From positions 1-25,449 of IMG/VR virus record IMGVR_UViG_3300042445_000919: a stretch of 25,449 nucleotides of DNA; one strand, given 5' to 3'. Made by a program: the position numbers and the translations under genes. Position 1 is the stretch's first letter. The number at the start of each line of letters is the position of its first letter. Below, one piece after another: positions 2,864 to 25,174 of this stretch. Origin of the DNA: a virus. The notes beneath the pieces are model-generated. The model saw only the letters and a list, made by a program, of their open reading frames with translations. It did not search any database and was not told where the DNA came from.

Positions 2864-3039
2864 TCTGCCAAAACTGCCTTCAAGCTGGTGCTGAGAATAA
2901 ACTAGGTCACTTGAAACGTGCCGCACATAAGCACGAGAAGTGCGATATGAAGGGGTGCGTATGCCAACACCGGACTGGTCCAGGGTACGTAAAGCGAGCA
3001 GATTCAAAGGTTCCGTTGATGCAAATACAATCCCCATAG
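2860..3039 (+). CDS. Small zinc-binding protein, GTG start, overlapping the primase gene
   Basis: GTG at 2860 overlaps the preceding TGA in a GTGA junction. The 59-residue product has Cys3, Cys6, His17, His23, His25, Cys28, Cys33, Cys35 and His37. The order C-x2-C ... H ... H-x-H-x2-C ... C-x-C-Q-H suggests one or two zinc sites. Small proteins of this pattern (ending in C-x-C-Q-H) are common in actinophage early regions. Its last 79 bases also encode, in another frame, the start of the primase zinc-finger protein. The dense Cys/His pattern argues for a real gene. The function is unknown; nucleic-acid binding is likely for such knuckles. Confidence 0.6.
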   Translation: MICQNCLQAGAENKLGHLKRAAHKHEKCDMKGCVCQHRTGPGYVKRADSKVPLMQIQSP

Positions 3040-3338
3040 GGGCAATAGTTGCCAACTTTGGTGGTGAAGTAAGAGAAGGTAAGTCAGTATCGGTTAGGTG
3101 CTGCTTACATAATGACAGTCGCAGGTCAGCTGTGATAAATACCTATGACAATTTATATTTCTGTCACACCTGCGGTAAGGGTGGCAACGCAGTAAACTTA
3201 GTTTGCATCCTAGAGAACTTGGAGTTTAACGATGGCCTCAAACGTGCAATCGAAATTGCTGCTGGAAGCGGCGCAGCGATACGCTCAGGCAATAAGTCCA
3301 GAGGCACTGGCCGTACTAGACGCACGTGGGATCTCTGA
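2961..3338 (+). CDS. DNA primase, CHC2 zinc-finger part
   Basis: This 125-residue protein carries a DnaG-type CHC2 zinc ribbon. Cys47/Cys48 and His50 are followed by Cys68 and Cys71 in the typical setting: C-x2-H, a polar loop, then NLYFCHTCGKGGNAVNLV. The following helix (LEFNDGLKRAIEIAAG) is the usual one after the ribbon. The ATG at 2961 has AAGGGG six bases upstream; a GTG at 2940 is the alternative. In DnaG-like primases this ribbon recognises the template and is joined to a TOPRIM catalytic domain. Here the TOPRIM part is in the next frame and overlaps the end of this one by 107 bases. The last ~30 residues (RSGNKSRGTGRTRRTWDL) do not look like primase and may be read only when no frameshift occurs. 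Confidence 0.82.
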   Translation: MPTPDWSRVRKASRFKGSVDANTIPIGAIVANFGGEVREGKSVSVRCCLHNDSRRSAVINTYDNLYFCHTCGKGGNAVNLVCILENLEFNDGLKRAIEIAAGSGAAIRSGNKSRGTGRTRRTWDL

Positions 3339-3882
3339 AGTTACAGCAGCCAAGTTCCAACTTGGCACCATCACCGATCCGATCAATGGTCACGAGATGT
3401 ATGAAGGTTGGATCTCCATTCCTTATATTACTGCTAGTGGTTCTTGTGTTGGGTTTAAGTTCCGCAGATTAGATGAAGGCAAACCTAAATATGGTAGTCC
3501 TACCGGACAGAAGGCTCACCTCTACAACGTAGCTGATGTGACCGTTATGAAGCCTTACATAGTTGTATGTGAAGGTGAACTAGATACCATCATAGTATCA
3601 GGTGAGTTAGATATACCAGCAGTTGGTGTGCCAGGGGTAGCTGCTTGGAAGCCACATTTTCCAAAGCTATTTGGTGGCTATGAAACTGTGTACGTTGTTG
3701 GTGATAATGATGTTAAAGAAGATGGCTCCAACCCTGGGGCTGAGTTTAGTAAGCGCGTGGCTAATGAGGTAATGAACTCTACAATCGTTACACTTCCACC
3801 TAATATGGACATTAACGATTACTACCTAGTACACGGCGCTAGTGCTACTCGCAAACTATTGATAGGAGAGTCCAGTGAATGA
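3232..3882 (+). CDS. DNA primase, TOPRIM catalytic part
   Basis: This 216-residue protein begins with the helical segment usual between the zinc ribbon and TOPRIM in phage primases (residues 16-45, ...LAVLDARGISEVTAAKFQLG). A small core with GFKFRRLD comes next. The TOPRIM acidic motifs are EGELD (Glu114 to Asp118) and VVGDND (Asp158, Asp160), which would bind metal for primer synthesis. The C-terminus (PPNMDINDYYLVHGA) is also typical. There is an ATG with GGAG eight bases upstream, so it may start independently. It may also be reached from the zinc-finger frame by a +1 (or -2) shift within 3232-3338. No helicase domain is attached; the separate ATPase at 1181-2029 may supply that activity. 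Confidence 0.85.
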   Translation: MASNVQSKLLLEAAQRYAQAISPEALAVLDARGISEVTAAKFQLGTITDPINGHEMYEGWISIPYITASGSCVGFKFRRLDEGKPKYGSPTGQKAHLYNVADVTVMKPYIVVCEGELDTIIVSGELDIPAVGVPGVAAWKPHFPKLFGGYETVYVVGDNDVKEDGSNPGAEFSKRVANEVMNSTIVTLPPNMDINDYYLVHGASATRKLLIGESSE

Positions 3883-7310: not shown

Positions 7311-7479
7311 TATCCTTGCCCTCTCTCTCGATTATTATTCCGACTTCGCCTAACGCCTTGACCATACGCATTAGGTTTTCAGCTGCCTTCTCGCCCTCTC
7401 CCGCGTCTATCTGGGTGAGTGCTAGGTTCCGGCACATATTAGCTTTAGCCAATAGGTATTCTTTAGTAGGTGCGCTCAT
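7303..7479 (-). CDS. Hypothetical helical protein (58 aa)
   Basis: I prefer ATG 7479 (MSAPTKEYLLAKANMCRNLA) because it sits in a TAATG junction with the upstream stop and has AAGGG before it; an in-frame ATG at 7497 lies inside the previous gene. The protein is two amphipathic helices (residues 4-50, with EGEKAAENLMRMVKALGEVG) and a charged tail. It may dimerise; no family is recognised. Confidence 0.55.
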   Translation of the reverse strand: MSAPTKEYLLAKANMCRNLALTQIDAGEGEKAAENLMRMVKALGEVGIIIEREGKDNE

Positions 7480-8392: not shown

Positions 8393-9004
8393 TTAATCTA
8401 CGTAGCGCATAGGCATAAGCAGGGCGCGCCACGTAATTGTATCGCTAGTAATTCTCACGCGCATAGGCTTACCCTCACCGCCGAAATACACTTTAATAGC
8501 TGCGCCCTTGCCCGCTATTTTCGCGTAATCGGTAAAGAATACAGGGTTAAACGCTACGCCCTCTACCGCGATAGGATCACTCTCTACTTTAGATAGTAAT
8601 TCTGCGGTAGGCGGGTAATTAGCGTCTACTAGGGTAAAGGTAATGCTATCGCCTAATGAGCTTACGGTTAGGGTATTACTTACACGGCTTAACCCGATTA
8701 GGTTACGCTTATGATCTTTAGCTAAGGTAATTAGGCGCTTAATATCCTCTAATGAGATGATAGCGGGATCAAGCTGCCCGTCTAGTGCCTTAATGCTGCC
8801 CTCAATTAAGCGGTATCTATCGGTAGCGCGGGCAATAAATAGCCCGCCGGCGCCCTCTACCTGTAACGCGTTAAGCACCTGCCGTCCCTTATCCTTATCT
8901 GCGTGAGTGCTAACGCCCTCTAATAGCTCTAGCAATACCGCGCCCTCTACCTCTAAATAGTTTAAGCCTACGTTAGTAGCCTTATCTGCCTGTACTGTAT
9001 CCAT
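8393..9004 (-). CDS. Two-domain DNA sliding clamp (DnaN-like)
   Basis: This 203-residue protein matches the last two-thirds of bacterial DnaN. The first part has the order 'L-L-E-L-L-E-G-V ... K-D-K-G-R-Q-V-L-N-A-L-Q-V-E-G' and ATDRYRLIEG, like clamp domain 2. The middle contains FTLVDANYPPTAELL, like the 'L-I-D-G-x-Y-P' strand. The end has VAFNPVFFTDYAK and finally WRALLMPMRYVD, the clamp C-terminal MPMR hallmark. DnaN is about 370 residues with three domains and forms dimers. This length suggests two domains and therefore a trimer, as in T4 gp45 or PCNA (inference). It would tether the polymerase to DNA, but no polymerase is in this window. It is on the strand opposite the primase operon, between two hairpin-rich spacers. 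Confidence 0.75.
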   Translation of the reverse strand: MDTVQADKATNVGLNYLEVEGAVLLELLEGVSTHADKDKGRQVLNALQVEGAGGLFIARATDRYRLIEGSIKALDGQLDPAIISLEDIKRLITLAKDHKRNLIGLSRVSNTLTVSSLGDSITFTLVDANYPPTAELLSKVESDPIAVEGVAFNPVFFTDYAKIAGKGAAIKVYFGGEGKPMRVRITSDTITWRALLMPMRYVD

Positions 9005-9029
9005 ATCCTTGCCCTCTCTCTCGCCCTCT

Positions 9030-23746: not shown

Positions 23747-25174
23747 ATGGCAACATTAAAAGAACGTCTTGATGCTATTGCTAATGAATTAAAAGCTGCA
23801 CAAGCAGCCTTAGCTGCCGCTGTTGAAAATCAAGAATCTAGCACAATAGTTAACAAAGCAAAAGCAAGAGTTAATGAAGCGCGAAAAGCCTACGAGTTAA
23901 GTGCGCCACAACGCAGCGATATTGCTGCCACGCCTACCCCTACACCAACACCAACACCAACACCTACTCCTACACCAACACCTACTCCTGAAGAAGATAA
24001 TTTTCAAGCATCAATTGATGAAGCAGCAGGAATGGATTCTTCATCATATGCAATAGATGAAGATGGTGATAGAACAGATGTTACTAGTGTTTCATTCGCT
24101 GGATTAACAGCCGAAGAACAAGCGGCTATTAGTGCTATTGATGAAAATGCTGTAGTTTCTACAGATATTGTTAACGAAGAAGATGCTGACGAAGAAGATG
24201 ATGATGAAGATACTGATGTTACCGGAGTTACTGGTACCACAACTTACACAGCACCAGATGGAAAGATATTTACTAATATAGATCTTTACAATGCTTACCT
24301 TGGTAAATTAAAATTAGATGAAAAGCGTGAAAGAGGAGAATCCGCTTACAAAATCTTGTATGAAGAATTTGACCGCTATGGACTTGCTTCTCTAGTAACA
24401 GATATTGAAGAATTTATTAAAGATGGTTTGTCTAAAGAAGAACTTAGAATTAAATTACGTGGAACGACATCCTATCAAAAACGTTTTGCTGCTAACGCAG
24501 ACCGTATTAAAAATGGATTAGCAGCAATCTCTGAAGCTGAGTACCTTGGACTTGAAGACCAGTACCAAAACATTATGCGTAACTATGGTCTGCCAGCGTC
24601 TTACTATACTAAAGGTGATTTAGGCGTACAAGAAGGTTTCCAAAAGTTTATCGCTAACGACGTATCAGCAACTGAATTAGAAGATCGCATTATGACAGCG
24701 CAAAATCGTGTGATTAACTCTAACCCAGAAGTATTGGCATCACTTAAAGCGTTCTATCCTGATATTAATAACGGCGATATTCTTGCTTACACACTAGATC
24801 CTAAGAACGCACTTGATAATATCAAGCGCAAGGTAACAGCAGCAGAGATCGGTGGCGCAGCCACACAAGCCGGACTCAAGACTGGTATGACTCGCGCTGA
24901 AGAACTTGGTGCTGCTGGTGTTACTAAGGCTGTAGCCCAACAAGGCTTTGAGACAGTAGCTGGCGGTGCTCCACGTGGTGGACAACTAGCATCAATATAC
25001 GGTCAAGATCCTTATACACAGGCCACAGCAGAAACAGAAGTCTTTGGTCTTGGTGGAAAAACAGAAGCCGCTAAGCAGCGTAAAAAAATTACAGGACTTG
25101 AGAAGGCCACCTTTAGTGGTCAATCTGGAGCAACCAGCACAGCACTAGTTAGAGATAGAGCTGGCGCTTACTAA
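23747..25174 (+). CDS. Virion structural protein with TP hinge and acidic tract (475 aa)
   Basis: The N-terminus is a helix (residues 1-50). A hinge of ten Thr-Pro units lies at 62-81. An acidic tract (NEEDADEEDDDEDTD) lies at about 143-157. From 185 onward it matches a module I know from many actinophages just upstream of scaffold and capsid genes: 'Y-G-L-x-S-L-V ... L-R-x-T-x-x-Y-x-x-R-F-A-A-N', then EYLGLEDQYQNIMRNYGLPA, and a C-terminal part with IYGQDPYTQATAETEVFGLG and ATFSGQSGAT. These proteins are usually annotated only as minor virion or hypothetical proteins. The hinge-plus-acid insert is an unusual addition. The gene is the last before the scaffold leader. Confidence 0.7.
   Translation: MATLKERLDAIANELKAAQAALAAAVENQESSTIVNKAKARVNEARKAYELSAPQRSDIAATPTPTPTPTPTPTPTPTPTPEEDNFQASIDEAAGMDSSSYAIDEDGDRTDVTSVSFAGLTAEEQAAISAIDENAVVSTDIVNEEDADEEDDDEDTDVTGVTGTTTYTAPDGKIFTNIDLYNAYLGKLKLDEKRERGESAYKILYEEFDRYGLASLVTDIEEFIKDGLSKEELRIKLRGTTSYQKRFAANADRIKNGLAAISEAEYLGLEDQYQNIMRNYGLPASYYTKGDLGVQEGFQKFIANDVSATELEDRIMTAQNRVINSNPEVLASLKAFYPDINNGDILAYTLDPKNALDNIKRKVTAAEIGGAATQAGLKTGMTRAEELGAAGVTKAVAQQGFETVAGGAPRGGQLASIYGQDPYTQATAETEVFGLGGKTEAAKQRKKITGLEKATFSGQSGATSTALVRDRAGAY
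23930..23989 (+). repeat. Thr-Pro coding tandem repeat
   Basis: Ten Thr-Pro codon pairs (ACN-CCN) lie in a row. They are built mostly from ACACCA and ACTCCT hexamers, with larger blocks such as ACACCAACACCTACTCCT seen twice. The repeat codes for the hinge at residues 62-81 of the 475-residue protein and is a likely site of length change by slippage. Confidence 0.85.

Follow-up and report, generated by a model that had tools for sequence, protein, structure and literature searches.

To our knowledge, all well-characterised ring clamps consist of two or three subunits that together form a six-domain ring. PCNA and T4 gp45 are trimers with two full domains per subunit, the T4 protein being 228 aa in length; bacterial DnaN has three domains of ~120 aa. 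Full-length phage clamps, such as Arthrobacter DrYang gp100 (372 aa), Persistence gp71 (358 aa) and the members of PHROG 947, are DnaN homologues that carry the ligand pocket and keep all three domains, unlike the protein described here. A family of short clamps is also already present in databases. It is found in Gordonia, Rhodococcus and Mycobacterium phages (PHROG 12598 and 3007), and its members have neither domain I nor the first half of domain III. In the open-access literature, no paper on this 1.5-domain build or on truncated or short phage clamps was found.

The clamp gene analysed here, designated the mini-clamp gene, is carried by a 25,449-base IMG/VR virus record (the window; GC 44.3%). 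Its features are listed in Table 1. The plus strand across 8393-9004 is full of stops. In two scans of viral contigs, a relative of ~200 aa that is 37-100% identical turned up at more than 70 loci, and in an alignment of 55 sequences 24 residues were invariant. The median dN/dS was 0.22 (272 pairs), and the family is under purifying selection. The 203-residue open reading frame noted in an initial sequence-only reading is therefore a real gene. The open frame comprises 216 codons; an in-frame stop stands 14 codons upstream of the ATG, with 13 open codons between. This rules out the upstream extension to three domains that the sequence-only reading had named as grounds for rejecting its proposal, and no three-domain in-frame version was seen among the more than 70 viral loci. 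One scan of bacterial genomes with short patterns detected no relatives, and a tblastn search with the window protein against a phage collection gave no significant match; relatives in cultured phages were reached through profiles and structure. One relative (G008; loci L089 and L091) appeared to carry two paralogous clamp copies, hinting at a hetero-oligomer, but its contig ends overlap, which reduces the pair to one gene with strain variation.

Table 1. Coordinates of the mini-clamp gene, its predicted structural units, pocket motifs and leader in the window.
Feature	Position	Strand	Details
Mini-clamp gene	8393..9004	minus	203 aa, ATG start, stop codon within range
Predicted unit A, residues 15-72 (first half of DnaN domain II)	8789..8962	minus	E15-20 H21-34 E46-52 E55-61 E65-72 (AlphaFold); PF02767 19-131
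Predicted unit B, residues 75-124 (second half of DnaN domain II)	8633..8782	minus	E75-84 H85-97 E102-108 E111-116 E119-124 (AlphaFold)
Short linker, residues 125-144, replacing first half of domain III	8573..8632	minus	Alignment
Predicted unit C, residues 145-203 (second half of DnaN domain III to C-terminus)	8396..8572	minus	H154-164 E171-173 E181-184 E191-196 (AlphaFold); aligned with E. coli 316-366
Pocket motif ATDRYRL, residues 60-66 (E. coli 171-177)	8807..8827	minus	T61, R63, Y64, R65 invariant in 55 relatives
Pocket motif FNP, residues 152-154 (N153 = E. coli N320)	8543..8551	minus	N153 invariant
Pocket motif LLMPMR, residues 195-200 (E. coli 360-365)	8405..8422	minus	M197, P198, M199 invariant
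Leader CGAGAGAGAGGGCAAGGAT with purine-rich, ribosome-binding-like GAGAGAGG	9005..9023	minus	Sequence; repeat family D7

The mini-clamp is homologous to bacterial DnaN. Residues 19-131 matched the Pfam profile for the DnaN central domain (DNA_pol3_beta_2, PF02767) over its whole length and above the cut-off (E 2.5e-6), a PHROG processivity factor was matched at 5.9e-14, and a profile built from 55 relatives matched solved DnaN chains at best at 3.8e-11. PF02767 was matched by 50 of these 55 relatives, and the Pfam C-terminal domain, weakly, by 28. The DnaN marks on which the sequence-only reading had relied, ATDRYRL, VDANYPP (residues 126-132) and the C-terminal LLMPMR, are all present. AlphaFold2 with the family alignment gave a model with pLDDT 90 and pTM 0.86, and residues 12-199 of this model superimposed on residues 127-380 of a solved DnaN chain (Z 21.0, rmsd 2.3, 183 residues). 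The assignment to a DnaN-type clamp is thus borne out, and with it the clamp fold that structure prediction of the monomer had been expected to recover.

The model consists of three successive strand-helix-three-strand half-domain units, A, B and C, with the first strand of unit C reduced to a mere bridge. A relative that is 40% identical, modelled separately, showed the same three units. The structural alignment runs from DnaN domain II through to the DnaN C-terminus, so in the model unit C most likely takes the place of the second half of domain III. When the sequence was aligned with E. coli DnaN, residues 19-148 fell on 130-259 and residues 149-201 on 316-366; the spacing from P131 to N153 is ~20 residues, as compared with ~77 in E. 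coli. What is missing is domain I, together with about 56-60 residues from domain III. The mini-clamp therefore comprises 1.5 domains, a complete domain II and only the second half of domain III, and the sequence-only estimate of room for two of the three DnaN domains was too generous by half a domain. At 203 aa the protein lacks the three ~120-aa domains of bacterial DnaN, with which it shares domain II, the second half of domain III, the ligand pocket and the fold. It also differs from PCNA and T4 gp45, which belong to the same superfamily and likewise have small subunits: both models contain three half-domain units in place of two complete domains. Because residues 19-148 align with DnaN domain II and the following junction and residues 149-201 with the DnaN C-terminus, the mini-clamp looks like a secondary deletion of a DnaN and is probably not the structural intermediate between clamp types that had been suggested. 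A split clamp with domain I encoded elsewhere was also considered. No separate gene for an N-terminal clamp domain scored above the cut-off in 11 records, comprising the window and ten near-complete relatives of 38-42 kb, and three weak matches fell in the mini-clamp itself.

For E. coli DnaN, 18 ligand-pocket residues and 13 dimer-interface residues have been listed (PMC11139829). All 18 pocket positions have an aligned counterpart in the mini-clamp. Among 55 relatives, conservation reaches at least 90% at 12 of the 18 and is complete at 9, both above expectation (Fisher p 9e-5 and 2e-5, respectively); relative to E. coli, the window protein carries the substitutions G174R, H175Y, R246E, Y323F and V344G. 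As judged by alignment, the canonical pocket for clamp-binding-motif peptides is retained, since the protein has kept domain II along with the C-terminal half of domain III. None of the 13 dimer-interface residues, which include I78, F106, I272, L273 and ion pairs, could be aligned; the interface was lost along with domain I and the ~60 missing residues of domain III. This agrees with the earlier view that so small a clamp could not form the normal two-subunit DnaN ring.

Basic residues at K37, K39, K89, R90, K96, K99, K162 and K166 are at least 90% conserved. Placed from the alignment and the predicted secondary structure rather than on coordinates, they lie on or beside three helices equivalent to the helices that line the channel in DnaN (PMC11139829). 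The K37-K39 loop aligns with DnaN H148-D150, and Q149 of DnaN contacts DNA (PMC11139829). We infer that these residues would face DNA in the mini-clamp. The family is thus conserved and selected without the dimer interface and half a domain, while keeping the pocket and the channel lysines. This raises the question of how, or whether, the mini-clamp encircles DNA, and implies either an as yet undescribed ring assembly or a clamp module that works without ring closure.

The same 1.5-domain layout and pocket residues were found in Gordonia Jace gp60, Horus gp57 and Sahara gp46, Rhodococcus REQ2 Orf51 and Mycobacterium Tortellini gp57. The mini-clamp shares with these short clamps of PHROG 12598 and 3007 a domain II and a domain III second half with pocket residues. 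They differ from it in sequence (19-24% identity), in length (233-266 aa, with extra N- or C-terminal tails) and in host. An uncultured Caudovirales phage protein labelled DNA polymerase III, beta chain, central (A0A6J5S145, 202 aa) is similar in size, with a TM-score of 0.74 in a comparison of predicted structures only, and is 24% identical.

Other genes of the window encode a WhiB protein, a DnaB-like helicase, primase pieces and a sigma factor, with a terminase to the right. The terminase is 46% identical to those of the cultured phages LanE43-AprE7 and LanE43-AprF5 (OX376640/OX376641), whose names and sizes match 'Ca. Planktophila' phages (PMC10202952). The WhiB gene, the GC content and these relatives indicate that the host is probably a freshwater actinobacterium. 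In the 11 records, searches covering DNA polymerase families A, B and C and, of the loader subunits, delta-prime gave no match, and the controls for these searches were positive. No convincing clamp-binding motif was present in the phage's replication proteins, so the client of the mini-clamp is probably a host protein. As for the primase, DNA primase family matches fall in two overlapping frames within 2940-3882, the N-terminal part at 2940-3338 and the later part at 3232-3882, and both frames are present in many relatives.

We consider the chances evenly balanced that the mini-clamp, bound to DNA in a non-canonical assembly, serves the host replicase as a tether or clamp. The phage would supply its own helicase and primase and employ host DNA polymerase III, and the mini-clamp would tether to phage DNA that polymerase and perhaps also the loader or further clamp clients. 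On the simplest reading the pocket would bind host proteins, polymerase III first: the helicase and primase are present, matches to polymerases A, B and C and to delta-prime are absent, and the phage's replication proteins offer no convincing clamp-binding motif. The weakest step is the assembly itself, which might plausibly be tetrameric, with 4 x 3 half-domain units, or else an open, non-encircling tether. A normal ring has 12 half-domain units, and at three per chain four subunits are needed; a normal 12-helix ring, if closed, would thus take four subunits, not three. A tetramer-closing clamp of 1.5-domain subunits, possibly with D2 symmetry and with the C units of two subunits completing one domain, is a doubtful proposition. 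If true, such a tetramer would display ligand pockets on both sides of the ring and represent a new way to build a six-domain ring. Several observations count against the tether or clamp reading. A monomeric DnaN variant binds DNA yet is unable to support processive replication (PMC11139829). The mini-clamp gene sits in a leftward gene group, apart from the helicase and primase, and no homologue was found in the cultured relatives E7 and F5, so the gene is dispensable in that wider group.

The main rival to a host-replicase tether or clamp is a monomeric decoy that sequesters clamp-binding proteins. Only the pocket and the DNA-facing helices have been kept and the known ring-closing surfaces have been lost, and delta binds monomeric DnaN ~50 times more tightly than the dimer (PMC11139829). 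Overexpressed phage clamps are toxic in Mycobacterium, as reported for Adephagia gp35 (PMC11373665) and Waterfoul gp48 (376 aa; PMC9339283); the latter, the toxic case of known length, is however a full-length clamp. In the Gordonia phages Sahara (L102, 2354-3124) and Horus (L104, 2387-3103) cro is found two genes before the short clamp, which neighbours the immunity repressor; early expression is therefore probable, as would suit a decoy. A pure decoy would have no obvious need for the lysines that are strictly conserved on the channel helices and that argue for DNA contact, and we regard this explanation as unlikely, if still worth serious attention. A mixed assembly with host DnaN, for example one in which the mini-clamp caps an opened host clamp, would exploit the surface of unit C that normally packs on the missing half of domain III and would here be free. 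With all known DnaN interface residues absent, no known surface could mediate such an assembly, which we consider very improbable. The homotrimeric ring like that of PCNA or T4 gp45, to which the sequence-only reading had been led, draws on the closeness of 203 aa to the length of T4 gp45. It is not supported by the models, in which three chains would provide 9 of the 12 half-domain units, and its likelihood appears slighter still.

Two further explanations are scarcely credible. One follows the annotation of known short clamps. GenBank labels the Jace, REQ2, Sahara, Tortellini and Horus proteins DNA polymerase III sliding clamp or beta subunit, whereas RefSeq and PHROGs label them RusA-like Holliday junction resolvase; some close relatives are labelled FtsK-like translocase. 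The full-length PHROG matches of the mini-clamp carry the RusA-like label, yet neither the window protein nor the 55 family members gave a RusA Pfam match, the predicted fold is that of a clamp, and GenBank names the same proteins as clamps. Tortellini has a separate RusA-like gene of 125 aa two genes downstream of its short clamp, and the label was therefore probably carried over from a neighbouring gene. These data suggest that the RusA-like label for such clamps in PHROGs and RefSeq is wrong. It is attached to the clamp-like protein of locus L103 (2489-3190), to the RefSeq copies of Jace, REQ2, Sahara, Horus, Hedwig and Bowser, and to PHROG 3007 and 12598. The other explanation, that a DnaN gene has been truncated or is decaying, or that the assembly has produced a fragment, would account for a protein shorter than DnaN. 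It is refuted by the same length in more than 70 contigs, the low dN/dS and the invariant residues.

The leader of the mini-clamp gene is part of an exact 20-nt repeat, the sequence at 9004-9023 being identical to that at 7311-7330. The heptamer GCCCTCT occurs 15 times between 6050 and 9029, as compared with 2.9 expected in the window; every copy is on the plus strand and all lie in a region of leftward genes, some in leaders and others inside the mini-clamp gene. In the right-hand part of the window, a 475-aa open reading frame (23747-25174) contains about ten consecutive Pro-Thr pairs and, after them, acidic stretches.
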